Made by a program: the position numbers and the translations under genes. Below, in pieces: positions 38,920 to 57,349 of a DNA stretch of 64,000 nucleotides. This stretch comes from Streptomyces sp. YIM 121038 (GTDB lineage: Bacteria > Actinomycetota > Actinomycetes > Streptomycetales > Streptomycetaceae), in NCBI RefSeq assembly GCF_006088715.1, contig NZ_CP030771.1, forward strand, positions 3,596,001 to 3,660,000, given 5' to 3'. The notes under the pieces were generated by a model. That model ran no database searches and had not been told where the DNA came from. It saw nothing but the letters and a program-made list of their open reading frames with translations. Within the stretch, counting starts at the first letter, position 1. Each line of letters starts with the position of its first letter.

Positions 38920-40584
38920 TCAGCCCCGGGTGAGCTTCTTGTACGTGGCGCGGTGCGGACGGGCCGCGTCCGGGCCCAGGCGCTCGATCTTGTTCTTCTC
39001 GTACGACTCGAAGTTGCCCTCGAACCAGAACCACTTGGACTCGCCCTCGTACGCCAGGATGTGCGTGGCGACGCGGTCCAGGAACCAGCGGTCGTGGGAG
39101 ACGACCACGGCGCAGCCCGGGAACTCCAGGAGCGCGTTCTCCAGGGACGACAGGGTCTCGACGTCCAGGTCGTTGGTCGGCTCGTCGAGGAGCAGCAGGT
39201 TGCCGCCCTGCTTGAGGGTCAGCGCCAGGTTGAGGCGGTTGCGCTCACCGCCGGAGAGCACGCCCGCGGGCTTCTGCTGGTCCGGGCCCTTGAAGCCGAA
39301 CGCGGACACGTAGGCGCGCGAGGGCATCTCGACCTGGCCGACGTTGATGTAGTCCAGCTCGTCGGAGACGACGGCCCACAGCGTCTTCTTCGGGTCGATG
39401 TTCGCGCGGCCCTGGTCGACGTAGGAGATCTTGACGGTGTCGCCGACCTTGATGCTGCCGGCGTCCGGGGTCTCCAGGCCCTGGATCATCTTGAACAGCG
39501 TGGTCTTGCCCGCGCCGTTCGGACCGATGACGCCCACGATGCCGTTGCGCGGCAGCGTGAAGCTCAGGTCGTCGATGAGGACCTTCTCACCGAAGGCCTT
39601 GGAGAGGTTGTTGACCTCGACGACGATGTTGCCCAGGCGGGGGCCCGGCGGGATCTGGATCTCCTCGAAGTCCAGCTTCCGCATCTTGTCGGCCTCGGCG
39701 GCCATCTCCTCGTAGCGGGAGAGTCGCGCCTTGGACTTGGCCTGCCGCCCCTTGGCGTTGGAGCGGACCCACTCCAGCTCTTCCTTGAGGCGCTTGGCGC
39801 GCTTGGCGTCCTTCTGGCCCTCGACCTTGAGGCGGGTGGCCTTCTTGTCGAGGTACGTCGAGTAGTTGCCCTCGTAGGGGTGGGCGCGGCCGCGGTCGAG
39901 CTCCAGGATCCACTCGGCGACGTTGTCCAGGAAGTACCGGTCGTGGGTGACGGCGACGACGGTGCCCGGGTACTGCGCGAGGTGCTGCTCCAGCCACTGC
40001 ACGGACTCGGCGTCCAGGTGGTTGGTGGGCTCGTCGAGGAGCAGCAGGTCGGGCGCCTCCAGGAGCAGCTTGCACAGCGCGACGCGGCGGCGCTCACCAC
40101 CGGAGAGGTTGGTGACCGGCCAGTCGCCGGGCGGGCAGCCCAGGGCGTCCATGGCCTGCTCGAGCTGGGTGTCCAGGTCCCACGCGTTCGCGTGGTCGAG
40201 GTCCTCCTGGAGCTTGCCCATCTCCTCCATGAGCGCGTCCGAGTAGTCGGTCGCCATCAGCTCGGCGACCTCGTTGAACCGCTTGAGCTTGTCCATGACC
40301 TCGCGGGCCCCGTCCTGGACGTTCTCCAGGACGGTCTTGGACTCGTCCAGCGGCGGCTCCTGCAGGAGCATGCCGACGGTGAAGCCGGGCGACAGGAACG
40401 CGTCGCCGTTCGACGGCTGCTCCAGACCCGCCATGATCTTCAGCACCGTGGACTTACCGGCGCCGTTCGGACCCACGACACCGATCTTCGCGCCAGGCAG
40501 GAAGTTCAAGGTGACGTCGTCGAGGATCACCTTGTCGCCGTGCGCCTTGCGCGTCTTGCGCATGGTGTAGATGTACTCAGCCAA
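38920..40584 (-). CDS. ettA: Energy-dependent translational throttle protein EttA (ABC-F ATPase)
   Basis: 554 residues, the exact size of the EttA group. Two ABC domains: Walker A GPNGAGKSTVLKIMAG and GPNGAGKTTLFKMIQG, signatures LSGGERRRVALCKLLL and LSGGERNRLNLALTLKQGG, Walker B LLLLDEPTNHLDAES and LLLLDEPTNDLDVET. The arm insertion and P-site linker (KAKRLKEELEWVRSNAKGRQ) lie between. It binds the ribosomal E site and senses ATP/ADP. The start is TTG at 40584, giving LAEYIYTMRKTRKAHGDKVI as in homologues; the frame stays open upstream, into the integrated element. The element's left att repeat ends 35 bp upstream of this codon, so integration changed everything beyond the immediate leader. 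Confidence 0.96.
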   Translation of the reverse strand: MAEYIYTMRKTRKAHGDKVILDDVTLNFLPGAKIGVVGPNGAGKSTVLKIMAGLEQPSNGDAFLSPGFTVGMLLQEPPLDESKTVLENVQDGAREVMDKLKRFNEVAELMATDYSDALMEEMGKLQEDLDHANAWDLDTQLEQAMDALGCPPGDWPVTNLSGGERRRVALCKLLLEAPDLLLLDEPTNHLDAESVQWLEQHLAQYPGTVVAVTHDRYFLDNVAEWILELDRGRAHPYEGNYSTYLDKKATRLKVEGQKDAKRAKRLKEELEWVRSNAKGRQAKSKARLSRYEEMAAEADKMRKLDFEEIQIPPGPRLGNIVVEVNNLSKAFGEKVLIDDLSFTLPRNGIVGVIGPNGAGKTTLFKMIQGLETPDAGSIKVGDTVKISYVDQGRANIDPKKTLWAVVSDELDYINVGQVEMPSRAYVSAFGFKGPDQQKPAGVLSGGERNRLNLALTLKQGGNLLLLDEPTNDLDVETLSSLENALLEFPGCAVVVSHDRWFLDRVATHILAYEGESKWFWFEGNFESYEKNKIERLGPDAARPHRATYKKLTRG

Positions 40585-40618
40585 GAGAAACCGTCCGGCA
40601 ATCAGTGTGTGGGCAGAT

Positions 40619-40642
40619 ACACCCCATCTTGCCGTACGGCTA
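40619..40642. repeat. Left attachment site repeat (attL core)
   Basis: 24 bp ending ATCTTGCCGTACGGCTA; identical to 50762-50785. Homology continues imperfectly on both sides: GGCAGA before the core and CCCC-GG-GAAAACC after it. The chromosomal side is the ettA leader. Confidence 0.9.
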
Positions 40643-40792
40643 GCCCCAGGCGAAAACCAGTATGTGCGGGGGCCCTGACCAGGGGCGCAAAGGTCAGCCG
40701 CGCACGCGGCAACCGTCGCTACCTGTCGTTGTTGGTCGTCGTCGGGCACCCTCGGACGGCCCACAGACGGCCCCACGGGCGGCCCGTGACGA

Positions 40793-41037
40793 CCTCTACC
40801 GGTAGAGGCCGGAACCTCTAGCGCTAGAGGTCTCACTAGCGGTCTGCACCGCCTCTGACCAGGGTGGTAGACGCTAGAGGCTGCCTTCGCGGAATCAGCG
40901 GATAGCCCCTGGGGCAGGGTCTGCGGCGGTCGCGCCGAGAGCTCTAGCGGCTCGGGCCCGACGCTCCCAGCGGCTCGCGGCCACGAGTCGCGAGAGCCGC
41001 TATCGATAGCGGCAGGGGGCGCTAACGTTAGCGCCCC
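40793..41037. repeat. Series of perfect palindromes at the left end
   Basis: CCTCTACCGGTAGAGG at 40793-40808; ACCTCTAGC/GCTAGAGGT at 40814-40831; GCCGCTATC/GATAGCGGC at 40996-41013; GGGGCGCTAAC/GTTAGCGCCCC at 41016-41037. All are exact dyads without a spacer. The last two contain GCTA-NNNN-TAGC cores. Confidence 0.9.
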
Positions 41038-41206
41038 TGATAGCGGCCCAAACCGCTGTCGACCTGGTCGCTAGCAGATAGCGAGGCACCTGGGCAGACC
41101 CCGGAATCCGGCCACTAGGGGCCTCCCGGGAGGGGCGCCGCCGGATCGCTATCAGCCCCGGCCGGACCGCGCGCGGCTGCCGGCCGTTGCGGGGGAAGAG
41201 CACGAA

Positions 41207-41256
41207 GGAGCGGCCTGCGGCCGCACGATCTTTGGCAGCTCGCTGCGCTCGCGCGC
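41207..41256 (+). repeat. 50-bp inverted repeat, left arm
   Basis: Pairs with 42133-42182 at 46 of 50 positions; both arms contain TTGGCAGCTCGCTGCGCTCG (or complement). Together they frame about 0.9 kb of iterons and hairpins. Confidence 0.9.
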
Positions 41257-41319
41257 CCGGTCACCGTGGACTGGCCCCGATCCGGCGGCTGCGGGCCGTG
41301 GGCGGCCGTGACGGCTGCC

Positions 41320-41437
41320 TGACGCCTGACACTGTCACGGCGCCTGACACCCAAACCCCTAGGCACACGCGGTGTCACGCGCCCTGACACCCGGCCTGAC
41401 GCCTGACGCTGACACCGCTTGACGCTCACCCTGACGC
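41320..41437 (+). repeat. TGACRC iterons
   Basis: Nine same-orientation copies of TGACGC or TGACAC at 41320, 41327, 41345, 41385, 41397, 41404, 41410, 41420 and 41432; inverted GTCAC copies follow up to about 41715. Confidence 0.75.
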
Positions 41438-41451
41438 CCCGCCGACCGCGC

Positions 41452-41562
41452 CACACGACGGCATTTCAGGGGAAGGGAGAGCGCCCCCGCCTTGGAAGGC
41501 GGTCCTGTCGGCCTTCCAAGGCGGCGCGGCAGCCCTGGCCCACCCTGAAATGCCGTCGTGTG
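41452..41562. repeat. Nested inverted repeat (double hairpin)
   Basis: Outer arms of 20 bp, CACACGACGGCATTTCAGGG (41452-41471) and its complement (41543-41562). Inside lies a second perfect pair, CCGCCTTGGAAGGC (41487-41500) and GCCTTCCAAGGCGG (41511-41524), with a 10-nt loop. The shape resembles single-strand or conversion origins of rolling-circle replicons. Confidence 0.85.
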
Positions 41563-41725
41563 ACGCTCCGTACAGCTCACCGTGACTCCGGCACCTGGAG
41601 CACGCCGTGACTCGTCACATGTGACGGGCCCGTCACACCCAAACCCCTAGGCAGACGCGGGCGTGACGCGCCCATCACAGCGGTCGTCACACCGCATCAC
41701 ACCTGCCTGTCACAGCATCTGGCCC

Positions 41726-41768
41726 AAGCAAGAAGAGCACCCCGCCCCGCCCGGTGCTCTTCTTGCTT
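41726..41768. terminator. Terminator-like hairpin in the element's left end
   Basis: Perfect 16-bp arms AAGCAAGAAGAGCACC (41726-41741) and GGTGCTCTTCTTGCTT (41753-41768), 11-nt loop. No gene ends nearby, so it may terminate an unseen transcript or insulate the region. Confidence 0.7.
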
Positions 41769-41826
41769 GAACCGACCGCGCATACCGTGATCGCGCCGTA
41801 CCTGGAGAGCCTTCCTTCTTCTCTTA

Positions 41827-42022
41827 CTAGAGAGTTGAGAGGGAATAGCGTCCGCAGCGTCCGCCGGGCGACGCTCACCCCATCTGACCTGCGCTGTTCC
41901 TGCGGACGCTAAACAAAATGTTTAGCGTCCGCAGCGTCCGGACACACCCTGTCACCAAGAGCGTGTTTCAGCAGGTCAGGGCAGCTCTCAGCAGATGGAG
42001 GGGTGCGGACGCTGCGGACGCT
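41827..42022. repeat. Iteron cluster 1: CTAGAGAGTTG box and AGCGTCCGC repeats
   Basis: CTAGAGAGTTG at 41827-41837, then AGCGTCCGC at 41847 and 41856 (tandem), a 15-bp perfect dyad TGCGGACGCTAAACA/complement at 41901-41933 containing two more, a near copy at 41933, and inverted tandem copies at 42005 and 42014. The layout is roughly symmetrical. Confidence 0.85.
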
Positions 42023-42040
42023 AACCCACGCCGGGAGCCT

Positions 42041-42078
42041 CGAAGAGGCCACCACCCGGACGCCGGGTGGCCTCTTCG
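42041..42078. terminator. Hairpin downstream of the XRE-like gene
   Basis: CGAAGAGGC with inner CACCCGG pairs with CCGGGTG and GCCTCTTCG; short bulge and 3-nt loop. Located 115 bp beyond the stop of the minus-strand XRE-like gene. Confidence 0.55.
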
Positions 42079-42132
42079 CGGCGTCGACGGCCGGTCGTGC
42101 GCGACGATGCTCAGCGCGGTACGGCGACTGTC

Positions 42133-42182
42133 GCGCGCGAGCGCAGCGAGCTGCCAAGGGTCGCGCGGCCGAAGGCCGCTCC
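42133..42182 (-). repeat. 50-bp inverted repeat, right arm
   Basis: Partner of 41207-41256 (46/50 matches), ending 11 bp before the stop of the XRE-like regulator. Confidence 0.9.
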
Positions 42183-42192
42183 ACACTGTTCG

Positions 42193-43440
42193 CTACTGAG
42201 GCAGGAAGCCGGGGGCCGTCTGCCCCAGTTCGCGCAGATGCGCAAGGTAGTCCTGAGTCGCAGGCTCGGACGCGTAACGGCGCTTCATCTCCGCCGCAAG
42301 CTCGCGGCTGATCATGATGAGTGACGGAACCGACTGGCGCTCCCCTTCGAGAGCTCGCTCCCCCAGGATGAGTGCTTGTTCGAGGTCACCTTCCCGCGCG
42401 GCCGTCACGCCCAACGTGACGCGTGCTTCCGCGTTGCGCATCGGCGCCCGCTCCGTGCCGTCGAAGTCCGTGCCTGCCCGGAGAACTTCCTCAGCAAGCG
42501 TCCGGGCCAGCTTGTCCTCTCCCACCAAGCGGTAGCAGTCCATCGCGTAGTAGTCGAACTTCGCGGGGTCCACCACGAAGTGGTTGTCTAGGTTCTCCGG
42601 ATGCGGCATCCCTTCGAGCAGGTTGCGCCCCCTGTCGAGCGCCACCTCAACCCGTCGGCGGTCCCCGAGCCGAGCCCATGCCTTGGCCTCCTGCGCGGCA
42701 AGCTGCACGGCTACGCCCTGGTGGGCGGCCACCTCTGTCCCTGCCTGTGCCGCTGCGACGACCCCGCGGTAGTCCCCCGTCGTGAGCGCGAACCAAGCTC
42801 GCATCTCATGGGCCCAACCGGCGACTTCAGCATGGTCCGCTTCGGTTGCCAGTGACAGGGCGGCCCGGCGCGTCGACTCGGCTGCATGGCGGTCGCCCAT
42901 GTCGTACTCCACGCACCCCACGAGGAGTGCTAGCCAGCCGGACAGGGACAGTACCTCGCGGTGCTGCGAGAGCGTCAGGCTCTTGGAGTGGAGCTCTACG
43001 ACGCGGCGGAGCCACTGGCGGCCTTCGATGAGAAGCTGTCCGCTCGGCATGAATGGGTACTCCGAACAGAGCCGATCTGTAGTGATCCGCAGTGCGTCGA
43101 GCGTGGCAGCGTCCACGTCGGACCGGTTGAGACGGCTCACGATCTCCAGTGTCTCCATGCCGCTCACGGCCAGGATTTCCCTGTCTCCATCCCGACGCGG
43201 CGGCGCGGGGAAGAGCGCGTGCGTCACGGTGCCGAAGACCGCCGCGATCAGAGGTTGGTAGAACTCGTTGGGGCTCTGCCCAGACTCCCAGCGCTTCCAC
43301 TGCCGGATCAGGCTGTCATCTGCGGGAAGTTCTCCGTCCGCGTGGGCACGAAGCGCTCTTACCGCGTCTCGCTGGGACCAGTCGCGCGCCGCACGTTCGG
43401 CCGCAATGCGCCGTGCCCAAGCGGGCCTGCCGTCGCTCAT
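42193..43440 (-). CDS. XRE-like HTH regulator with helical-repeat C-terminus
   Basis: 415 residues. The N-terminal ~75 residues form an HTH: ARRIAAERAARDWSQRDAVR then DDSLIRQWKRWESGQSPNEF, typical of XRE proteins. The remainder (from about residue 95) is helical, TPR-like, with repeated short helices (AESTRRAALSLATEADHAEV, ARTLAEEVLRAGTDFDGTER), resembling Rgg/BldD-associated or plasmid maintenance regulators with ligand-binding TPRs. Probably controls the element. Minus strand, facing away from the replication block. Confidence 0.85.
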   Translation of the reverse strand: MSDGRPAWARRIAAERAARDWSQRDAVRALRAHADGELPADDSLIRQWKRWESGQSPNEFYQPLIAAVFGTVTHALFPAPPRRDGDREILAVSGMETLEIVSRLNRSDVDAATLDALRITTDRLCSEYPFMPSGQLLIEGRQWLRRVVELHSKSLTLSQHREVLSLSGWLALLVGCVEYDMGDRHAAESTRRAALSLATEADHAEVAGWAHEMRAWFALTTGDYRGVVAAAQAGTEVAAHQGVAVQLAAQEAKAWARLGDRRRVEVALDRGRNLLEGMPHPENLDNHFVVDPAKFDYYAMDCYRLVGEDKLARTLAEEVLRAGTDFDGTERAPMRNAEARVTLGVTAAREGDLEQALILGERALEGERQSVPSLIMISRELAAEMKRRYASEPATQDYLAHLRELGQTAPGFLPQ

Positions 43441-43601
43441 ACGCCCTCCTCCGAGTGCCTACGCTCCGAGTCTCACCCGCGGCCCGGGGGGACAGGGAAG
43501 GGGACAGCAAGGTGACACCGGACATGTCCCCTGCTTCGGTTCACTGCCCCCCTCAGTGTCACTTACGTCACAGGCCGCCGTGCTCGCATTCTGGTTCCAG
43601 A

Positions 43602-43937
43602 TCAAGCACCGCCAGAGTGAGAGCGGTTCTCCAGCGCTTCGAGCCGTTCAGACAGCATCTGAATCTGGGAGCGGATTTCCTTGATGTCATCGCGCACGTC
43701 GGCCGGAGGCACGGTTCCATCGCCGACAAAGTTGCCGAGGTTCCCGGCCGAGATGACCAGCCCTTCGGCCTTCAGCTTGTTCAGTCCGTTTTGGATGGTT
43801 TGGCCCGCGAATCCGAACCGGTCAGCCAAGTCCTTCTGTGACGGAAGTTGCTGGCCGGGCTCCATCGTCTTGATGTCCTCGCGGAGCGCGTCCGCGACCT
43901 GTTCCGCCTTCGTCTTGGGCAAGCCTGTGGCAGTCAT
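43602..43937 (-). CDS. GntR family regulator, short form
   Basis: 111 residues. Winged HTH with KAEQVADALREDIKTMEPGQ, LPSQKDLADRFGFAGQTIQN and GLNKLKAEGLVISAGNLGNF: the GntR DNA-binding domain. Only a short coiled tail (IKEIRSQIQMLSERLEALEN) follows instead of an effector domain, as in KorSA-like regulators of Streptomyces elements. Start ATG 43937. It faces the replication block across a palindromic operator, so it likely represses that block and itself. Confidence 0.88.
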   Translation of the reverse strand: MTATGLPKTKAEQVADALREDIKTMEPGQQLPSQKDLADRFGFAGQTIQNGLNKLKAEGLVISAGNLGNFVGDGTVPPADVRDDIKEIRSQIQMLSERLEALENRSHSGGA

Positions 43938-43968
43938 GCTCTGAGGGTACCGGCGCACACCACAGCGA

Positions 43969-44025
43969 ACTAGTGCACTCCAACTCAGGGGTTGCGCACT
44001 AGCGTGTACTAGTGCACGCTAGTGC
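43969..44025. promoter_or_regulatory. GntR-type operator region between the two transcription units
   Basis: Perfect dyad GCACTAGCGTG (43996-44006) and CACGCTAGTGC (44015-44025) around TACTAGTG, with ACTAGTGCAC repeated at 43969 and 44008. It lies between the gntR-like gene and the plus-strand block; the likely binding site of that regulator. Confidence 0.75.
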
Positions 44026-44157
44026 ATGCAAAGCCGACCGCCACAAGGCGAGCGCACGACAAAAGGCCCTGGTCAACGCCGGGGCGAAGAAGCAGGGAGC
44101 GGCTCCCTACCGCCAAGCAGATAGCCGCTCCCCGACCCTCGAAGGGGTACCTCCATC

Positions 44158-44739
44158 ATGCCTGGAACTGTCATGGAGCAGGGCACCGCGCAGGATGCGG
44201 TCTTAGGGATCACCCGCAGCGAACTCGGCGTTCTGCTGGACCACTTGCGGGAGATCCGGCAGTCGATCTCCGGTATGGAGCGGCGGATCGACGCGCTGGA
44301 GAACGCGGCGCGCATCCCGGCCGTGTCGGAGGCAGCGCAGCCGGTCACGATCGTCGCGAGCGGCCCGGTCGGCCGCCTGGTGGACAACGTGGACGTGCTC
44401 GGGGACCCGGAGCCGGGAGCTCCCATGCGAGTGACCGTGGACGTGTGCTCGCACCTGTCGTTCGGTGAACTGCTGGCCCTGCTGCTGTTCACGCCGGGTC
44501 TGAACCTGCTGTGGTCCGAGCTGGAGGACGACGACGCTGCGGTCCGGGAGAGCGTGAGCTTCGCCGTGCTGGCCAATGATCTGCTGGCCCTGGACGACCG
44601 CGCGGACTACGCCCTGTCCCTGTACCAGCGGCGGCCGCAGGCCTGCGCCCCGGCGGGGCTGGCGGTGACGGACATGGACCCGACGTACGTGTACTGCGTG
44701 GGGCAGGCCATCCAGCGGGTCTACGGGGTGACGGCATGA
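44158..44739 (+). CDS. Element protein of unknown function
   Basis: 193 residues. After a short N-terminus there is a coiled-coil segment (LLDHLREIRQSISGMERRID, about 24-50); the rest is mixed, with HLSFGELLALLLFTPGLNLL. No known motif. First gene of the plus-strand block; overlaps the next gene by 4 bp (ATGA). Expressed from the promoter controlled by the GntR-like protein. Confidence 0.75.
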   Translation: MPGTVMEQGTAQDAVLGITRSELGVLLDHLREIRQSISGMERRIDALENAARIPAVSEAAQPVTIVASGPVGRLVDNVDVLGDPEPGAPMRVTVDVCSHLSFGELLALLLFTPGLNLLWSELEDDDAAVRESVSFAVLANDLLALDDRADYALSLYQRRPQACAPAGLAVTDMDPTYVYCVGQAIQRVYGVTA

Positions 44740-45152
44740 CCATCACGAGGGAACGCGAGCGGACGCCTTCGCTGGTGACCGTGACGGTCAACGGACCAGT
44801 TCCCCCGCAGCCGCAGGCGCTGCGGGCCGCGAACACCCCGTTGGGGCACGCCCGGCTGGCGCGCGGCTGGTCGCAGGACAAGACGGTGCGGGCCCTGCGT
44901 CTGCTCGCGGAGAACTGGGGCTGGCAGATCGCTGCGGAGACCTCGCTGAAGGTACAGCTGTCCCGCTGGGAGCACGAGTCGGGCCGTCCCAGCGAGATGT
45001 ACCAGGTACTGCTGTGCGCGCTGTACCGGGCCACGCCCGATGAACTCGGCTTCCGCCGGACGCCGGTGACGGTGAAGGCGCTTCAGAACCGTATCGACGA
45101 CCTGGAAGCCCTGGTGTGCACGCTCACCGCTGAGCGGGAGGCGCAGGCATGA
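44736..45152 (+). CDS. XRE-like small DNA-binding protein
   Basis: 138 residues. HTH pattern LGHARLARGWSQDKTVRALR and VQLSRWEHESGRPSEMYQVL in residues 35-95, then a coiled tail LQNRIDDLEALVCTLTAERE. Likely a transcription or partition-type DNA-binding protein. Coupled to the genes before and after by ATGA overlaps. Confidence 0.8.
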   Translation: MTITRERERTPSLVTVTVNGPVPPQPQALRAANTPLGHARLARGWSQDKTVRALRLLAENWGWQIAAETSLKVQLSRWEHESGRPSEMYQVLLCALYRATPDELGFRRTPVTVKALQNRIDDLEALVCTLTAEREAQA

Positions 45153-45937
45153 GCACTACTGCCCTGGACGCCCTGTACACGCAGGTGCGGACCGCTGCGG
45201 CGCCGGTCGTCTCCCTTTCAGGGATGGACCGGCGCCGGGACGGCGACACCTTCGCCACCATCCCCGTGGCCGGGCTGGAGCTGACGGTGGGCGAGGCAGC
45301 CGCCGCGCTGTTCGAGACGGCTGCGGAGGATCTCGCGCTTCCGGTGCCCAGCACCGACGCCCTGTACGCGGCGCTCACCGCCGCCGTGAACACGCTGGGC
45401 CCAACGGGAATCGCGGAGCACACGCCCGAGTTCGAGGGCCTGGACGGAGACCCGGTGGAGTGGCCCGAGGTGGCCACCTGCCGCAGGTTCGCCTACCGGC
45501 TGGCCCTGTCGTTCTGGTACGCGGGAGCGCGCTCGCGGCCGATGACGGCCGGGGAGGTCGGCGCGGCGGTGTACCTCTCCAGCCTGAACCGCTACCGGGC
45601 GGAGGTCTTCCGTGAACTGCCCGGCCGCAAGCTGCTGCTGGCCCGCGCGATCCACGAGGGCGCCACGGCGGTGCCGACCGAGACCCTGATCCGCCTGGGC
45701 GCGGTGATGGGCGGAGAGCTCGGCGGAGCCGACCGCGACCGCGAGCGGGAGTGGCTGTACAAGCAGGCCCTGCCCGACTACCACCGCCGCCGCTTCGCGT
45801 TCGACCTGGTGCGCTTCGACCGCAGTCAGCCCGCGCCGCTGGTCGTGCGCCCCGACTCCGGCGGCTACACCATCGGCCTGACCCCGCCGCCCGGCCCTGA
45901 CGGCACCTGGCTGCGGCCCCTGCGGGCGGAGTGGTAG
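45149..45937 (+). CDS. Element protein of unknown function
   Basis: 262 residues. No signal, no membrane helix. Contains LTVGEAAAALFETAAEDLAL and a region RRFAYRLALSFWYAGARSRP with aromatic residues; C-terminal half rich in Arg/Tyr (REREWLYKQALPDYHRRRFA). Not recognised. Same operon, 4-bp overlap with the XRE-like gene. Confidence 0.75.
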   Translation: MSTTALDALYTQVRTAAAPVVSLSGMDRRRDGDTFATIPVAGLELTVGEAAAALFETAAEDLALPVPSTDALYAALTAAVNTLGPTGIAEHTPEFEGLDGDPVEWPEVATCRRFAYRLALSFWYAGARSRPMTAGEVGAAVYLSSLNRYRAEVFRELPGRKLLLARAIHEGATAVPTETLIRLGAVMGGELGGADRDREREWLYKQALPDYHRRRFAFDLVRFDRSQPAPLVVRPDSGGYTIGLTPPPGPDGTWLRPLRAEW

Positions 45938-45939
45938 CC

Positions 45940-46542
45940 GTGCGCCCCGGACATCCCCTCAACTCCGCGCGGCGGCGCGTGCGCAAGGAACAGCTCGCGC
46001 GCCGCCACGGGCAGCGCTGCGCCTACTGCCGCCGCCCGTTCTCCTGCCTGAGTGAGGCCACCCTCGATCACGTGGCACCGTGCTCACTGTGGCGCTCGTG
46101 GTCGGTCACCTCCCTGATGCTGGCCTGTGTCGACTGCAACCACGCCAAGGCCAACCAGCTGCCGCTCTCGCTCGCCCTGGTGCTGTGCGCGGCGCTGCGG
46201 TCGACGCCCGTCAACGACGCTTCGACGCCCGTCGCCCCGACCGTCGACGCCCCGACTGTTCACGTCAATGGCCCCGCGCTCACGGCCGCTCATGCCGTGT
46301 TCACGGCGCCGTTCACGCTCGGCCTCTGGCGGCTGCTGGCCCGACTCGCACACGCCCACCAGCCGACGTTCACGGCCGTGTGGTCGCCCGACCCGACCGG
46401 CCGACGGTCGACCCCTGACCGGCCTCAATCGGCCTGCCACGACCGCCGTGAACAGCACCCGTCGGCCCGACCGAACTGCCTGCGCGCACCCCGACCAGTG
46501 CGGACGTGCACGGGCTCGACTGGAGAGGCGGTGTGCGCGTGA
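45940..46542 (+). CDS. HNH endonuclease of the element
   Basis: 200 residues. HNH core: CAYCRRPFSCLSEATLDHVA, PCSLWRSW, then LACVDCNHAKANQLPL; both CxxC zinc pairs and the catalytic His (DHVAP) are present. The C-terminal ~90 residues are Thr/Ala/Arg-rich without structure. GTG 45940 has GGAG about 8 nt upstream; GTG 45931 is an alternative. Its stop overlaps the start of the ATPase gene (GTGA), so the two are coupled. A nuclease next to a replication ATPase could nick the origin or act in packaging or defence. Confidence 0.82.
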   Translation: MRPGHPLNSARRRVRKEQLARRHGQRCAYCRRPFSCLSEATLDHVAPCSLWRSWSVTSLMLACVDCNHAKANQLPLSLALVLCAALRSTPVNDASTPVAPTVDAPTVHVNGPALTAAHAVFTAPFTLGLWRLLARLAHAHQPTFTAVWSPDPTGRRSTPDRPQSACHDRREQHPSARPNCLRAPRPVRTCTGSTGEAVCA

Positions 46543-46628
46543 ACGCGATGAACGGCCGCATGAACGGATCGGCCCGACCCGTGAACACGGTGAACGGCGC
46601 CGTGAACACCACGGCCGACCCGGTGAAC
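46258..46628. repeat. GTGAAC/GTTCAC repeat cluster across the HNH-ATPase junction
   Basis: GTTCAC at 46258, 46299, 46311 and 46368; inverted GTGAAC at 46448, 46539, 46581, 46590, 46602 and 46623. Ten copies in 370 bp, inverted about the gene junction. In the ATPase gene they encode the repeated VN in MNGRMNG...VNTVNGAVNTT. A second origin-type candidate. Confidence 0.65.
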
Positions 46629-48215
46629 ACCCCCACACCCGACGCGAGTCGGGCGGCCGTCGATCGGACCCGGTCGACCGGCCGTCGGCCCGACCATGGC
46701 GACGATGGCGGCAAGAAGCCTCCCGTGGCGGCCCGGATCGTCGATATGGCGCGGGAGGAGTACCGGTTCGTGACGTCTCCCGACGGCCGCCCCTACGCGG
46801 TCGCCCTGGACGGGCCGAACGTCGCGCTGCCGCTGCGGAACAAGGGCGGCTTGCGGCAGCGGCTGGCCCGGCAGTTCGCCGACGCCTACCCCGGAGAAGT
46901 CGCCTCGCAGTCCGCGCTCGCGGACGCCATGACCGTGCTGGAGGGCATCGCCGATTCCGGCGACCCCGAACCGGTGCACCTGCGCGTGGGACGCGACCCC
47001 GCCGGCGGAATCGTGGTCGACCTCGCCAGCGCCGACGGCCGCGCGGTCCAGGTCACCGCAACCGGCTGGAACGTCGTGGAGCGGGCCCCGGTGCTCTTCC
47101 GCCGCTCCGGGGCCATGGCACCGATGCCCGCCCCCGTCCTGGACGGCGACGGACTGGCCAAGCTGCACGCCCTGCTCAACATGGACCAGCCCTCGTTCCA
47201 TCAGCTCGTGGCGTGGCTGGTCGCGGCCTGGATTCCCGACATCCCGCACCCCGCCCTGGTGTGCAAGGGCGAGCAGGGCACGGGCAAGTCCAAGGCCGCG
47301 CAGATGTTCATCAACCTCATTGACCCGTCCCCGGCCGCCAAGCGCAGCCAGCCACGCGACGAAAAGGCCTGGTCCCGCCAAGCGTTCAGCTCCTGGGCCC
47401 TGTGCCTGGACAACGTGAGCACGATCCCGCCGTGGCTCTCGGACACCCTGTGCAAGGCCGTGACCGGTGACGGTGTGGTCGACCGCGCCCTGTACACCGA
47501 CGACGACGTGGTCGTGCTCACCTTCAAGCGGGTGCTGGCCCTCACCACCATCGACGCCGGGGCACTCGCCGGGGACCTGGCCGAACGCGTCCTCCTGCTG
47601 GACTTGCAGCTCATCGACTCCGAACACCGCCGCTCCGAAGAGGAGTTGGACGCCACCTTCGAAGCGGTCCGTCCGGCCGTGCTCGGCGCTCTGTTCGACG
47701 TGCTGGCGTGTGTCCTCGCGGTCCTGCCGGGGGTGCGGCTGGCGTCCATGCCTCGCATGGCCGACTTCGCCCGCGTCCTGGCCGCAGTCGACCAGACGCA
47801 GGGCTGGAACACCCTGAACGACTACCTCGCCACCTCGGCGAACGTCGCCACCGACGCCCTGGAAGGCGACCTGTTCGCCATGGCCATCGCCCGCCTGGTG
47901 GAGCAGGCGGGCACCTGGCAGGGCACCGCCGGGCAGCTCCTCGAGACACTGCCCGCACCACTGGTCCGCCCGCCGAACTGGCCCAAGGACGCCACCCGCA
48001 CCAGCGGACGCGTCAAGCGCCTCGCCCCGCTCCTACGCTCCATCGGAATCATGGTCGACGACACGCAGCGTAGCCGCGACCGGACCCGTCACAAGCTCCT
48101 CACCCTGTCCCGCGCACCCGACGAGGACGAGCCAGCGTCCGCACCCGAACAGGGCCCGCTCTGGCCGGAGGTGGCCCCGCCGGGGCACGGCAGAACCCCG
48201 CACGACCAGCCATGA
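46539..48215 (+). CDS. P-loop ATPase, phage/plasmid replication helicase-like
   Basis: 558 residues. Asn/Thr/Val-rich N-terminus encoded by the GTGAAC repeats. The ATPase core has Walker A GEQGTGKS at 244-251 and a Walker B-like strand ALCLDN with Asp291, followed by ALYTDDDVVVLTFKRVLALT, the layout of D5/SF3-type phage and plasmid replication helicases. The C-terminal ~150 residues form a winged-helix-like region (LVEQAGTWQGTAGQLLETLP, TSGRVKRLAPLLRSIGIMVD). No primase motif is visible. It is the best candidate replication protein of the element. GTG 46539 chosen because it overlaps the HNH stop by 4 bp. Confidence 0.8.
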   Translation: MNAMNGRMNGSARPVNTVNGAVNTTADPVNTPTPDASRAAVDRTRSTGRRPDHGDDGGKKPPVAARIVDMAREEYRFVTSPDGRPYAVALDGPNVALPLRNKGGLRQRLARQFADAYPGEVASQSALADAMTVLEGIADSGDPEPVHLRVGRDPAGGIVVDLASADGRAVQVTATGWNVVERAPVLFRRSGAMAPMPAPVLDGDGLAKLHALLNMDQPSFHQLVAWLVAAWIPDIPHPALVCKGEQGTGKSKAAQMFINLIDPSPAAKRSQPRDEKAWSRQAFSSWALCLDNVSTIPPWLSDTLCKAVTGDGVVDRALYTDDDVVVLTFKRVLALTTIDAGALAGDLAERVLLLDLQLIDSEHRRSEEELDATFEAVRPAVLGALFDVLACVLAVLPGVRLASMPRMADFARVLAAVDQTQGWNTLNDYLATSANVATDALEGDLFAMAIARLVEQAGTWQGTAGQLLETLPAPLVRPPNWPKDATRTSGRVKRLAPLLRSIGIMVDDTQRSRDRTRHKLLTLSRAPDEDEPASAPEQGPLWPEVAPPGHGRTPHDQP

Positions 48216-48466
48216 CGTAGCCGGAACACCTGCCGGGCCGGGCCGCACACCAGCGGCCCGGACACGTCGAAACCTGCGGACGCTACAGCCGCCCCGCGTC
48301 CTCAGCGTCCGCACTAGCGTCCGCACCCCGCACCCCCGCTGGCCTGCCACAACGCGGCCGTGCGGACGCTGGGAAGCTGCGGACGCTGAAATACACCAAC
48401 TCTCTAGGACGGCAACCGGCACCACTCCCACGCACCGCATCCCGGACACGAGGAGTCACCACCGCC
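48216..48466. repeat. Iteron cluster 2 upstream of the excisionase gene
   Basis: GCGGACGCT at 48276, 48362 and 48379; inverted AGCGTCCGC at 48304 and 48316; CAACTCTCTAG at 48397-48407 is the inverted copy of the box at 41827. Box and iteron are spaced by 9 bp in both clusters. Likely the promoter/operator of xis as well as an iteron site. Confidence 0.8.
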
Positions 48467-48709
48467 ATGCCCCCCGCCGACGAGCCGACCGATCCGCGCG
48501 AGACCCTGCGCGGCGGCCTCCCGGACCGCTACCTCACCCCCGAAGACCTGGTCACCATCTTCAGCCTCCCCAGCGTCGAAACCGTCTACCAGTGGCGCCG
48601 CAAACGCATCGGCCCCACCGGCTTCCGCGTCGGCCGCTACCTCCGCTTCAACCCCGCCGCCGTACAAGCCTGGGAAGCCGAACAGACCGCCCTTAACGAC
48701 GCGGCCTGA
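48467..48709 (+). CDS. xis: Excisionase (MerR-type HTH, Xis-like)
   Basis: 80 residues. YLTPEDLVTIFSLPSVETVY and QWRRKRIGPTGFRVGRYLRF form the winged HTH of Streptomyces excisionases. It helps the integrase to excise the element. It lies about 700 bp before int, unlike the overlapping xis-int pairs of pSAM2-type elements. Confidence 0.9.
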   Translation: MPPADEPTDPRETLRGGLPDRYLTPEDLVTIFSLPSVETVYQWRRKRIGPTGFRVGRYLRFNPAAVQAWEAEQTALNDAA

Positions 48710-49412
48710 ACGGCTGCTAGGCCTAGCGCCCACCCCTGCTAGGCCTAGCACCCCCACTAGCGGCCGATCCGCCCCCTGACCAGCCACCTAGCGCCTAGCA
48801 CCACCACCCGCCGAGACGCCCGAAACGGGCCCGGACGGCGGGGGAGGCAGCACCCGCCGGGCCGGGGAAGGGGGAGAACTCCCCCCGAACCTTCCTCGGC
48901 CGCCTCCCCCGCAGCCACCTGCGGAAACACCCCCAGGGGGAGGCGGGGGAGGCCCCGCCGGAGCTCCCCCGAAACCCCCTCAGACGGCCGCTTCGGGCCC
49001 CCGTCTCCACCTCCCCCACCGCGCCCCGGCGGGCACCGCGAGCGGCAGGGAGGCACCACCCGCCACCCCAGGGAGCCAGGGAGAACTCCCTGACCACCTC
49101 CCTGCTCCGCCTCCCTCCACCTGACCAGCGCAAACAGCCCCTCAGGGAGGCAGGGAGGCACGCCCCCAGCACTCCCGGAAGCCCCCTCAGGAAGCCAACC
49201 GAGACCCCTGTCTCCACCTCCCTGAAACCCCACCGGAGGGCGCTACCGATAGCACCCGCACCCGCTACCGGTAGCAGGCCCACTAGCAGCCCAAACCCCC
49301 AGTGATCAGGCCCGTAGCAAGTAGCGGGCCCGGTCCAGCACACCCCGAAACCGGCCGGACGGGCGCCACCAGGTCCCACCGCGCCCTGCTACCGAGAAGG
49401 GAGTCAGCCCCG
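48710..49412. other. Structured spacer between xis and int
   Basis: 703 bp without a supported gene. Palindromes TGCTAGGCCTAGC-type at 48716-48727 and 48737-48750, a diverged tandem duplication (units about 48840-49048 and 49049-49230), then GCTACCGATAGC (49242) and the perfect GCTACCGGTAGC (49264-49275). Probably integrase/excisionase arm sites or a second regulatory locus. Confidence 0.7.
48840..49230. repeat. Diverged tandem duplication, ~209-bp period
   Basis: Two units share order of motifs: GGAGGCASCACCCGCC, a GGGAGAACTCCC dyad (48870-48885 and 49079-49090), GCAAACA/GGAAACA, CAGGGAGGC/AGGGGGAGGC, and CTGTCTCCACCTCCC/CCGTCTCCACCTCCC. Runs of G differ between copies, pointing to old duplication plus drift or gene conversion. 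Confidence 0.7.
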
Positions 49413-50669
49413 ATGGCTGGCCATGTCCAAGACCGTTGGTACAAGACCGAGACCGACGCCGACGGCAAGGAGATCAGGGTCAGAAGCGACCGTTACGGCA
49501 CGGGCCTGCGCTACCGGGCCCGCTACATCGGACCCGACGGCACCGAGAAGTCCAAGAGCTACGCCGACGGCAAGAAGCGGCTTGCCGAGAAGTGGCTAAC
49601 GCGGATCGAAGCGGACATGGACGCGGGGCAGTTCATCGACCCAAAGGCCGGACAGATCACGTTCGGGGAATACGCCGAGAAGTACCTAGGCGGACTGACA
49701 ACCGATCTGGGCAGCCGTGAAGTCGTGTGCCGACGCATCCGGTTACATGCCGTTCCCTATCTGCGCACGCGCCCCATGGGATCCTTCAAACCCGAGCACA
49801 TGCGCACCTGGTTGAACCAGCTTCAGCTAGCGGTGCCGAACGGGACTTACCGCCGTGCGATCTACGATTCGGTGTCGTCGCTCTTCAACGCTGCCGTAGA
49901 CGATCGCGTGATCAGGTCGAACCCCTGTCATGCCCAGTCGGTCAAGTCTCCGATCCCTGAAGACCGACTGATCGTGCCGTGGCCCGAAGAGCGGGTAGTG
50001 GCTGTTCGCGAAGGGATGCCCCCGCGGTACGCCGCCACTGTGGACGCTGGCGGCGGATGCGGGCTCCGCCAAGGTGAGGTGTTCGGCCTTGCCGAGGACA
50101 ACGTGGACTTCGACACCGACTGGGTGCACGTCCGACAGCAGATCAAGCGTGTGGGCGGCGTCCTGGTCTTCGCCCCGCCCAAGCGCGGCAAGCTTCGGGA
50201 CGCGCCGCTCAGTCCGGTGGTGGGGGCGGGGCTGCGTGAGCACATGGAGCTGTTCCCACCCGTCGACGTAAAGCTGCCGTGGAAGACGCCGGACGGACCG
50301 CTGGTGACGCGGAAGCTGATCTTTACGAGCGGCGTGGGCAAGGCCATCTGGCGCAGCTACTTTGACGATCACGTGTGGAAGCCCGCCCTGGCTCATGCCG
50401 GTGTGATTCCCCCCAGGAAGCCGGGCCAGCGCTACGCCGCCGCCCCGGACGACGGCATGCACGCGCTGCGGCACTTCTACGCCTCGATGGTCCTGGAGGG
50501 CGGAGGCAGCATCAAGGCGCTGAGCACCTACCTCGGGCACTCCGACCCCGGGTTCACGCTGAAGATCTACACCCATCTCCTCCCCAGCAGCGAGGAGAAG
50601 GCTCGGGCTGCCGTGTCGGCCGTGTTCCAGCGGATCCGCCCGGCCCCGGAGCTCCCGGTGGCGGCCTGA
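49413..50669 (+). CDS. int: Tyrosine recombinase / integrase
   Basis: 418 residues. N-terminal AP2-like arm-binding segment (RYRARYIGPDGTEKSKSYAD), SAM-like core-binding domain, and the catalytic domain with Arg219 (GLRQGE), His350-x-x-Arg353 (HALRH), His376 (LGHSDP) and Tyr386 (IYTH). All five catalytic residues are present, so it should be active. ATG 49413 with GAAGGGAG upstream. It ends 92 bp before the right att repeat, the usual placement. Confidence 0.96.
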   Translation: MAGHVQDRWYKTETDADGKEIRVRSDRYGTGLRYRARYIGPDGTEKSKSYADGKKRLAEKWLTRIEADMDAGQFIDPKAGQITFGEYAEKYLGGLTTDLGSREVVCRRIRLHAVPYLRTRPMGSFKPEHMRTWLNQLQLAVPNGTYRRAIYDSVSSLFNAAVDDRVIRSNPCHAQSVKSPIPEDRLIVPWPEERVVAVREGMPPRYAATVDAGGGCGLRQGEVFGLAEDNVDFDTDWVHVRQQIKRVGGVLVFAPPKRGKLRDAPLSPVVGAGLREHMELFPPVDVKLPWKTPDGPLVTRKLIFTSGVGKAIWRSYFDDHVWKPALAHAGVIPPRKPGQRYAAAPDDGMHALRHFYASMVLEGGGSIKALSTYLGHSDPGFTLKIYTHLLPSSEEKARAAVSAVFQRIRPAPELPVAA

Positions 50670-50761
50670 CGGCCCCCAGACGGCCCACGGCCCGTGCTCG
50701 GCCCCTGGTTGGCGGTTCTCCCGCTGGTCAGGGGCCGTTCGCATGGTCGGGCTCGGCAGAA

Positions 50762-50785
50762 ACACCCCATCTTGCCGTACGGCTA
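50762..50785. repeat. Right attachment site repeat (attR core)
   Basis: Identical to 40619-40642. Flanked by imperfect extension (GGCAGA before; CCCCCCGG-GAAAACC after). Confidence 0.9.
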
Positions 50786-50906
50786 CCCCCCGGAGAAAAC
50801 CGGATAGCCGTGCGGCCCGCCCGACCCGTGGGGGCCACCCGTCAGGAGTGCGGGTGGTGGACCCGGGGCCGGTGGCACACACCGTGGCAGGGTGGTCACG
50901 ATGTGC

Positions 50907-52406
50907 TTACTCCTCGGTCGGGGTGGCCTTGTCGGTCCCGGCCGGGTCGTTCTTCTTGCGGAGCAGGAACACCGCGCCGCCGCCGACCACGACCAGGGCG
51001 ATCGCGAGCCCTGCTATCAGGGGCGTGGCGTTCGACCCGCCGGTCGCCGCGAGGTCACCGCCCCCGGACGTACCGCCCGCCGACGCGGGGCTCGGCTGGG
51101 GCGCGGGCTGCGCCTTGCCGCCGACGCCGACGACCGCACCGGCTTCGGTCCGGCAGTCGAGCACTCCGCTGAAGCGCTTCTCGAAGCCGCCGGGCCCGGT
51201 GATCGTGAAGTCGTAGGCCTGGTCCTCCTGGAGCGGAATCGTCACCGTGCGTGACTCACCGGCCTTGATGGTGTGCTTGGCGCCCATCAGACTGAAGGTG
51301 AACGGCGCGTCGCCCTTGTTGCTCGCCGTGATGTCCACGCCGGACTCCGCGCAGTTCTTCTCCGCGGACAGCGCCGGTATCGGGCCCTTGCGCGCCCAGT
51401 GCGCGGTCGCCGTCGCGGCCACCGTCGACTCGCTGGAGCCCGCGAGGATCTGCGTCTGGCTCCTGGTCTCGGAGGTGAAGGCCCGCCCGACCGGCACGGT
51501 CGTGGACGCCTGCACCTCCAGCGAGGCCATGCCGTCCGGCGTGCCCTTGGGGACGGCGAAGTACAGCTTGCCGCCGTCGGACACCGACTTCGCCGGCTTG
51601 CCGTTCTTGCCGACGACCCGCACGCCGCTCGCCGGGTCGGCGGGGGGTATGACGGTCACGCTGTCCGCGCCCGTCCGCACGGTCACCGGGCCGAGCCGCT
51701 CCCCCGCGCGGCCGGACACGGCGGGCGGCTCCAGGGTCAGCGACGCCTTCGGCTCGGGGCTTGTGCGCGCGCTGCGCTCCAGATAGTCCGCGAGCTTCTC
51801 GGCCCGCGGGTCCACCGCCTCCACCTCGACCCCGGCGGTCCGGCCCGTCCCGTGCGACTTGCCCGCCCGCTCCGCTCCCTTCGCCTTCTCCGCCTTCTGG
51901 GCCTTCTCCGAGTAGCGCCAGATCGCCACCTGGGTGCCCGCCGCGGCCGTCTCCTCGGTGAGCGAGCCCGCGCCCGCCTTGCGGGCCAGCTCCGCCAGGT
52001 CGTTCACCTGGGGGTAGGAGTGCTGGAGGATCCAGCGGATCTTGCCCGCGTCGCGGTTGGCGTGCAGGGACGTGCCGCGCCAAGGGGTCTCCTTGTACTG
52101 CGCGTCCTTCTGCGTGGGGTTGTGGAGGTCGACGCAGTACGTCTGGAGGGTGCCGCCGTTGTCCACGGACATCTCGAAGAGGCCCGCGGGGATTCGCTGG
52201 CTTTCGCCGTCCTCGCGGATGACGGCCTGGCTGTAGGTCGTCAGGCCGTCCAGCGTGGCGGTGGCCCCGCCCCGGTACGGCGGGGCGTCCGTCGCCACGG
52301 CCGCCGCCGCGGTGGCTGTCGCGCCCGCCGAGACGAGCCCGGACGCGACCAGCGCGGCGGCGAGGCGCGCGGCACCCCGGCCCCGTATGGACAACGCAGC
52401 AATCAC
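50907..52406 (-). CDS. Thioester-domain surface protein with sortase signal
   Basis: 499 residues. Signal peptide at the N-terminus (LAAALVASGLVSAGATATAA). The thioester domain shows TYCVDLHNPT with Cys91 and GTQVAIWRYSE with Gln159, the pair that forms an internal Cys-Gln isopeptide-like thioester used to bind surfaces covalently. Two Ig-like repeats follow, then LAATG, a hydrophobic helix and a KK-containing tail (residues about 455-499): a LAXTG-type sortase signal, as in Streptomyces chaplin and SrtE substrates. Start GTG 52406 with GGAGGGG upstream. It sits directly beside the right end of the element. Confidence 0.9.
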   Translation of the reverse strand: MIAALSIRGRGAARLAAALVASGLVSAGATATAAAAVATDAPPYRGGATATLDGLTTYSQAVIREDGESQRIPAGLFEMSVDNGGTLQTYCVDLHNPTQKDAQYKETPWRGTSLHANRDAGKIRWILQHSYPQVNDLAELARKAGAGSLTEETAAAGTQVAIWRYSEKAQKAEKAKGAERAGKSHGTGRTAGVEVEAVDPRAEKLADYLERSARTSPEPKASLTLEPPAVSGRAGERLGPVTVRTGADSVTVIPPADPASGVRVVGKNGKPAKSVSDGGKLYFAVPKGTPDGMASLEVQASTTVPVGRAFTSETRSQTQILAGSSESTVAATATAHWARKGPIPALSAEKNCAESGVDITASNKGDAPFTFSLMGAKHTIKAGESRTVTIPLQEDQAYDFTITGPGGFEKRFSGVLDCRTEAGAVVGVGGKAQPAPQPSPASAGGTSGGGDLAATGGSNATPLIAGLAIALVVVGGGAVFLLRKKNDPAGTDKATPTEE

Positions 52407-52712
52407 AGAATTCCCCTCCGGGCAGGACCGATTCACATGGGGGGACGGGTCCCGCCAGCAGACTCAGAGCGAGCAGAGTCACCTGCCGAGCGCTCCACTC
52501 GGGCATCAACTGACCCACGCAGCCACGCCCGGAATCCTAAAGACGCGACGCATCGCCGTTCCCAGTACGACCGTCCGACAACCGATCCGAATCGGAATCG
52601 TTATCGGCAACGCCCCCGTTGAGCTGGGCTTATCGATAAATCCATGGTTCCGTTCCCCTCATTTCACAGGGGGACGGCGGGCGTTGGACGCGGGGCCGGG
52701 CCTTCCGGCGCC
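52407..52712. other. Intergenic region between the thioester protein and ssb paralogue
   Basis: 306 bp upstream of the thioester gene. AT-richer patch GCTTATCGATAAATCCATGG near 52627-52646 and the inverted CCGATCCGAATCGG at 52579-52592. Promoter of the surface protein expected; no gene seen. Confidence 0.5.
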
Positions 52713-57276: not shown

Positions 57277-57349
57277 GCCCCCGTAGCTCAGTGGATAGAG
57301 CAGGTGCCTTCTAAGCACTTGGCCGCAGGTTCGAGTCCTGCCGGGGGCG
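57277..57349 (+). tRNA. tRNA-Arg (anticodon UCU)
   Basis: 73 nt. Acceptor GCCCCCG pairs with CGGGGGC, discriminator G. D-arm TAGCTCAGTGGATAGAGCA; anticodon stem GGTGC/GCACT around loop CTTCTAA, giving anticodon TCT; T-arm GCAGG-TTCGAGT-CCTGC. No CCA encoded, as usual in Streptomyces. Decodes AGA, a rare codon here. The element in this window did not integrate in it. Confidence 0.95.

Follow-up and report, generated by a model that had tools for sequence, protein, structure and literature searches.

When an integrative element enters the control region of a housekeeping gene, what becomes of the signals from which that gene is expressed? The question is raised by a 10.2-kb element (40619-50785) inserted upstream of ettA in Streptomyces sp. 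YIM 121038, within the window analyzed here, a stretch of 64,000 nucleotides (positions 3596001-3660000 of the 11.1-Mb genome, labelled G000 C1 in the genome set). The answer proposed is that an arm carried by the element very probably substitutes for the promoter-like block of ettA that insertion displaces, and that most other ettA sites bearing such an arm are insertions that have decayed around it.

An integrated element upstream of ettA

That 40619-50785 is an integrated element, with the ettA upstream region as its insertion site, is confirmed. A preliminary description of this DNA had reported identical 24-bp flanking repeats that extend imperfectly to about 50 bp. The direct repeats were found again at 40619-40642 and 50762-50785 (two matches with up to three mismatches allowed, both exact, against a mean of 0.00 in 100 shuffles), and the extended repeat comes to 47 bp, 43 of them identical (40612-40658 and 50755-50801). 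A BLAST search of the 11.1-Mb genome with the left junction returned the two element ends only and no third copy. When the host flanks were joined and compared with genome G081, 1290 bp aligned at 79%, unbroken across the junction; the site in G081 is therefore empty and upstream of ettA. It lies between ettA and a sortase-substrate gene. The empty attB anticipated by the preliminary description was found at ettA and not at some unrelated place.

The target is also as first described. The ettA gene (38920-40584, minus strand) is a host core gene identified by the NCBIfam EttA equivalog NF008775/TIGR03719, its coding sequence (CDS) is intact after insertion, and 35 bp separate the 24-bp core from the TTG start (40582-40584), leaving the core outside the CDS.

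The conserved block in the ettA leader

Leaders of ettA were recovered from 147 of 150 same-genus genomes; the remaining three are the window genome and two genomes (G001 and G050) left out because the 5' end of ettA was not recovered and no usable leader was available. The 147 comprise 8 occupied sites and 139 without a bounded element, of which 36 bear an arm of the kind described below and 103 are arm-less. The motif GGCA[AG][GT]ATGG is present in all 147 leaders. A conserved GTTTCC precedes it by 20 nt, and its TT is kept at 138 of the 139 sites lacking a bounded element. The stretch between these two motifs is variable and the leader after the block varies in length. By its conservation the block is read as a candidate promoter with -35 and -10 elements. 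Its reading as a leader peptide was ruled out by eye, since one- and two-base differences in length between species break the frame.

Proposed exchange point and substitution of the block

Nine loci have elements bounded by at least two att copies at the ettA site: the window, L063, and L065-L071, with only an integrase fragment in L071. The smallest sequence common to attL and attR of these elements is ACACCCCATCTTGCC, which places the exchange at the 3' edge of the block. In the mechanism proposed, the tyrosine integrase would recombine attP with an attB at this edge, most likely within ACACCCC (40619-40625, unstranded), a proposed 7-bp strand-exchange region with imperfect inverted arms on either side, flanked by GGCAGAT and ATCTTGCC. 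Comparison shows that insertion leaves in place both the ettA CDS and the leader between the CDS and the core; the host block is moved to attR, and the attP arm gives an equivalent (GTTTYC, 20 nt, CAAGATGG) at an unchanged distance from ettA. The imperfect repeat of about 50 bp is the span in which the element arm copies the conserved promoter-like block.

In the window, attL (40612-40658, minus strand) joins the host 5'-untranslated side to the substitute promoter-like block borne by the element, in which GTTTTC (40652-40657) and CAAGAT (40626-40631) are separated, on the minus strand, by a 20-nt spacer. This block scores 30.6 with a position weight matrix (PWM), a value equalled at none of 19990 interior positions. 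At the other end, attR (50755-50801, minus strand; PWM score 27.7) holds the putatively displaced host block, which is directed into int from its 3' end and, if active, would give antisense int RNA while the element is integrated.

In all nine bounded loci the block is present in the arm next to ettA, with scores of 23.5-36.0 versus 27.3 +/- 8.9 (minimum -1.7) at 139 other sites (L072 contributes only an attR row to the PWM table). In each of the nine elements, no interior position matches the score of that element's own arm block, and the highest of 221,506 interior scores, 18.3, comes from one of the att copies inside L068, a tandem locus. The latter, in genome G133, has three att cores at positions 711, 4714, and 10234 in the ettA-left orientation; it appears to be a tandem in which two units have accreted at the ettA site, and nothing in the first unit matches the window integrase. 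The substitute block may thus be a promoter, with ettA expression continuing from the copy that the element carries.

Element arms and putative fossils beside ettA

The attP right arm (P', 40661-40808, plus strand) contains probable arm-type sites, including TGACCAG (40676-40682) and GACGGCCCACAGACGGCCC (40755-40773). The left arm (P, 50668-50761, plus strand), recognized by setting the arms of ten loci side by side, contains GACGGCCCCCAGACGGCCC (50668-50686) and CTGGTCAGGGGC (50724-50735). The arms of ettA elements have TGACC[AT]G, GTTGGTCG-type, and ACGGCCCAGAGACGGCCC-like repeats in common at similar spacing, and because such repeats are also present in elements at other targets, the integrase probably uses them as its arm-type sites.

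Two profiles were used to look for these arms elsewhere: one built from 15 ettA-element arms with the promoter block excluded, the other from eight elements at other targets only. With nhmmer, the right arm of the window scores 90.3 bits with the former, which includes that arm, and 53.6 bits with the latter. At E<1e-3 the ettA-arm profile matched 37 of the 139 sites without a bounded element, 36 of them directly beside ettA, and neither shuffled nor reversed sequences; the remaining site, L128, has its match about 1.7-1.8 kb from ettA and is counted as arm-less. With the other-target profile, all 8 occupied sites matched, as did 15 of the 36 that bear an arm; among the 103 arm-less sites it had no match near ettA, its single match in that set being the distant one in L128; its reversed and shuffled controls also gave none at E<1e-3. 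Four loci (L074, L075, L202, and L203) enter no count.

What lies beyond the arm is consistent with lost elements. Among the 103 arm-less sites, 88 have the usual sortase-substrate neighbor, 1 has other host genes, and 14 have neither, and element-gene queries matched in none of the 103. The usual neighbor is within 2.7 kb in 15 of the 36 arm-bearing sites. Twenty of the 36 were traced for 12-18 kb, and 12 of these have the neighbor, 10 of them new, which brings the total to 25 of 36. No intact integrase of the window element's family was found on the 20 traced stretches, other integrase families not having been sought. The traced sites do hold remnants: integrase fragments (L322 and L326), GntR genes or fragments (several sites), second att copies (L326 and L327), and a TraB-like gene (L324). 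In some, as much as about 10 kb of DNA between arm and neighbor is unexplained. In L067, L068, and L327 an arm is also present on the far side of attR, as if a newer element had entered an older fossil. Most of the 36 arm-bearing sites may therefore be regarded as candidate fossils, decayed insertions in which the element was lost and the promoter arm retained, presumably because ettA needs it.

Points against substitution and decay

Several results weigh against this interpretation. The PWM is partly circular, as 36 of its 139 training sites carry element arms. A sigma-70 consensus scan of 40500-41000 gave no promoter and left the conserved block unscored. Only 101 of 147 leaders contain the 15-bp core exactly, namely those of all 8 occupied sites, 34 of the 36 with an arm, and 59 of the 103 without one; attB is therefore not universal. 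The assignment of attR as the host side is weakly supported by the bases beyond the core, where agreement with G081 is 30/40 for attR and 27/40 for attL. Of the 36 arm-bearing sites, 21 go unmatched by the other-target profile, the host neighbor was not found in 11, and 16 were followed to 2.7 kb only; the integrases sought were those of the window element's family. In G099 (L324/L149), another contig, C528, holds an intact-looking int and attR, so that an element divided between the two contigs probably occupies this site. Finally, the 36 arm-bearing sites are from related species, with shared descent certain for many, and so represent far fewer events.

An RNA hairpin is also possible in 114 of 139 leaders, and the block could instead be an RNA leader element (GGCAAGAT, a 7-nt loop, and ATCTGCC) that the integrase uses as other integrases do the stem-loops of tRNA genes, the arm restoring the RNA element. 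The 7-nt loop coincides with the proposed overlap. However, the two most conserved parts, GGCAAGATGG and the GTTTCC that precedes it by 20 nt, do not pair with each other; the 25 leaders without the partner still keep GGCA[AG][GT]ATGG; and a permissive Rfam scan of 40000-51500 gave chance-level matches only, with none at the block. A hairpin is thus considered unlikely to be what is conserved.

Alternatively, the arm-like sequence beside ettA could be ancestral host DNA that elements captured. The motif [AT]GGTCA is exactly at -49 in 47 of the 139 sites, including 17 not called arm-bearing by the profile, and was read by eye at -59 in two loci from other genera. Outside the genus, 15 of a set of 30 loci were available and 14 of them usable (the remaining 51 such genomes yielded no locus), and in 4 of the 14 an arm scores beside ettA. 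The association of arm and ettA is therefore old. Capture is nevertheless judged to have a low probability: arm motifs also flank the att sites of elements at other targets, and arm-bearing sites include some with integrase fragments, a second att copy, or a whole or partial GntR gene, while the element queries matched nothing at the 103 arm-less sites.

Integrase family and its targets

The int gene (49413-50669, plus strand) encodes a 418-aa tyrosine integrase (PF00589; Int chain 6emy, 3.1e-08), its ATG start at 49413 having been chosen from alignment with relatives. Its catalytic-type residues, claimed earlier, were located as R219, K260 (or K257), H350, R353, H376, and Y386, with roles as known for the family.

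The nine best-scoring integrases have the ettA core just downstream, and the next 21 with loci lack it there; an integrase fragment in G063, lower in the list, is also at ettA. Of 110 integrase loci (30 from a first search and the best 80 from a second, with at least four genomes counted twice), 38 have the ettA core at +92 (14 loci), +65 (23), or +66 (1) from the int stop. The integrases at ettA fall on one side of a branch with support of 84/81 (30 rows) and 85 (109 rows) and thus form one group with moderate support. L255, being short, was left out of the larger tree, whose midpoint-rooted drawing sets L041 apart from the ettA set, and the ettA core is missing from L207 and L214, although both belong to the clade.

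Sister groups of integrases are at protein genes, not tRNA genes. A glutamine-synthetase (glnA-like) gene is the site of 37 other loci, with its 3' end mostly 78-98 bases from the int stop, and nusG is the site of two, at 63 and 79 bases. At six loci the gene is gpmA, 84 bases from the int stop in one and 655-1278 in five, for which only the gene is shown. These three names were checked. A further 12 loci are near one shared gene, which we take to be penicillin-binding-protein-like, with a coding 3' end, presumably of a mannosyltransferase, immediately after int, and 15 of the 110 have no assigned target gene. A tRNA target was ruled out: ARAGORN found a tRNA gene in none of 29 integrase-relative loci (flanks up to 1.5 kb), and the only tRNA of the window is at 57277. 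The preliminary description was right that ettA, and not a tRNA gene, is the target, but a non-tRNA target looks normal for this integrase family and not unusual.

Genes and classification of the element

Inside the repeats, two regulators on the minus strand are followed on the plus strand by three unknown or helix-turn-helix proteins, an HNH nuclease, a P-loop ATPase, an Xis-like protein, and Int; the paired regulators, replication-type ATPase, and excisionase named previously are all among them. The regulators are an NsdA-family tetratricopeptide-repeat protein (42193-43440; NF053720, 110.7 bits, cut-off 75) and a GntR regulator of 111 aa (43602-43937; PF00392, 2.1e-13). The first plus-strand gene (44158-44739) encodes a 193-aa protein of unassigned function without a Pfam, NCBIfam, or PHROG match, with homologues in L200 (34%) and L313 (46%). 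It is followed by a 138-aa helix-turn-helix protein (44736-45152; HTH_31 and an NsdA-family N-terminus, both weak and under cut-off) and a 262-aa protein of unassigned function (45149-45937). The latter has 133 homologues, and all organism-named ones among the 120 listed are from Streptomyces; its confident model (pLDDT 89.5) found no PDB match at E<=0.001. The HNH nuclease (45931-46542) is just above cut-off (PF01844, 21.5 bits, cut-off 21.4; PHROG HNH). The ATPase (46551-48215), a probable replication protein (Rep), has the motif GEQGTGKS; neither RepSA nor any other Pfam family matches it at cut-off, RepAM not having been sought separately; its homologues are named "ATP-binding protein," one VirE-family, and its model (pLDDT 44) was left unused. 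The Xis-like excisionase (48467-48709) matches Pfam HTH_17 (PF12728, 3.4e-07) and the PHROG excisionase phrog_66. Defense cargo was rejected, as PADLOC returned only weak HNH and GntR helix-turn-helix resemblances. Beyond attR, the host neighbor (50907-52436, minus strand) encodes a thioester-domain LAETG sortase-substrate protein (TIGR03934, NF041528, PF08341).

Palindromes of the CCTCTANCGNTAGAGG / CCGCTATCGATAGCGG type occur at 40797-41030 and 49266, and similar ones come after the arm in other-site elements (L233 and L312). Palindromic TANCGNTA cores number 5 in the 10.2-kb element versus 1 in 52.5 kb of window sequence outside it. These palindromes may serve in replication or transfer. 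The operon is flanked by GCGTCCGCAGCGTCCG / GCGGACGCTGCGGACGC-type repeats (41846-42024 and 48265-48390), to which a regulator or Rep may bind. There is also a 50-bp inverted repeat (41207-41256 and 42133-42182; 92% complementary, spacing 876 nt).

The element had been called complete. It is so in its integration functions, with an intact tyrosine recombinase, end repeats, and an empty site in a relative, as in other tyrosine-integrase elements; however, a Pfam scan of the element proteins found no conjugation gene. PF01580, which would indicate an FtsK/SpoIIIE-type Tra protein, is absent from the nine element proteins scanned, although FtsK domains are present elsewhere in the genome of the strain. 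There is no relaxase domain among the Pfam hits of the element proteins, clt not having been searched. The integrase is of one of the two types (tyrosine or serine) found in actinomycete integrative and conjugative elements (AICEs), but with no Tra protein the element falls outside the Int, Rep, and Tra definition of PMC3218068. It is, by predicted gene content, a non-conjugative, AICE-related integrative element, and its mobilization by a resident TraB would be a guess. A phage or satellite identity was rejected: a search with Rep returned two records of one phage at 29%, and PHROG matches were limited to the regulators, HNH, Xis, and Int.

Alternatively, the element could be a decayed AICE that lost traB: three other ettA-site elements tested carry FtsK/TraB, one with RepSA and DUF2637 as well. 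The relatives of its Rep (seven, 70-74% identical: L200 and L312-L317) argue otherwise. All seven keep the HNH-Rep-Xis order, and none matches any of six putative TraB queries (three with an FtsK domain) or RepSA. Int comes next after Xis in six, the contig of L316 ending before that point; these integrases are 52-58% identical, and their int genes are not followed by an ettA core. Loss of traB by the window element is thus distinctly improbable, and its predicted TraB-less family occurs with other integrases at other sites.

Comparison with known systems

Elements at the 5' end of housekeeping genes are known. In the dusA islands, as presented in PMC8409611, the promoter and N-terminus are replaced on insertion and dusA expression was assayed, with SXT at prfC cited; a dusA-specific family is described in PMC4482086. 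The ettA element resembles these in entering a housekeeping-gene 5' region and displacing native upstream signals, for which it supplies a sequence equivalent, here a candidate promoter. Unlike SXT and the dusA islands, which cut the CDS and provide a new N-terminus, the ettA element swaps non-coding DNA only (the core being outside the CDS), as known here from sequence, and probable fossil arms are present at ettA in many genomes.

According to PMC3218068 and PMC9513070, AICEs mostly use tRNA 3' ends, exceptions being the pSLS subfamily and some protein-gene insertions. The window element is like AICEs in having an integrase, an Xis-like gene, a GntR regulator, and att repeats, and unlike most of them in its target and in lacking TraB and RepSA. 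For the TnGBS integrative and conjugative elements, too, promoters determine where insertion takes place (15-17 bp upstream of those recognized by sigmaA), but the enzyme is a DDE transposase, as described in PMC3942029. In the literature searched, which did not extend to the supplementary site tables of PMC9513070, ettA was not found as an integration site.

Implications for ettA and its elements

In integrative elements at tRNA genes, attP restores the part of the target displaced by insertion. What those elements restore is the tRNA 3' end, while the ettA element would restore upstream control DNA. These observations point to a site-specific recombinase whose attB is a putative housekeeping promoter, not a tRNA gene or the 3' end of a gene, and to elements that pay for the ettA site with a substitute promoter-like block. 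A broader reading, held with slightly more belief than doubt, is that the integrase is an engine of ettA promoter turnover through repeated insertion, substitution, and decay, with some elements entering earlier fossils. On this reading, roughly 30% of the sampled Streptomyces species have ettA under a promoter of element origin (45 of 148 sites, the sum of 9 bounded and 36 arm-bearing ones, at least one of the 36 probably being a split-contig element). The family also suggests a clear case of integrase specificity switching between related clades, and the frequency of the exact 15-bp core suggests a chromosomal site for integration vectors. If the fossil reading is true, then mobile DNA durably rewrites the control region of a core gene while sparing its protein, which would be a route of regulatory evolution.

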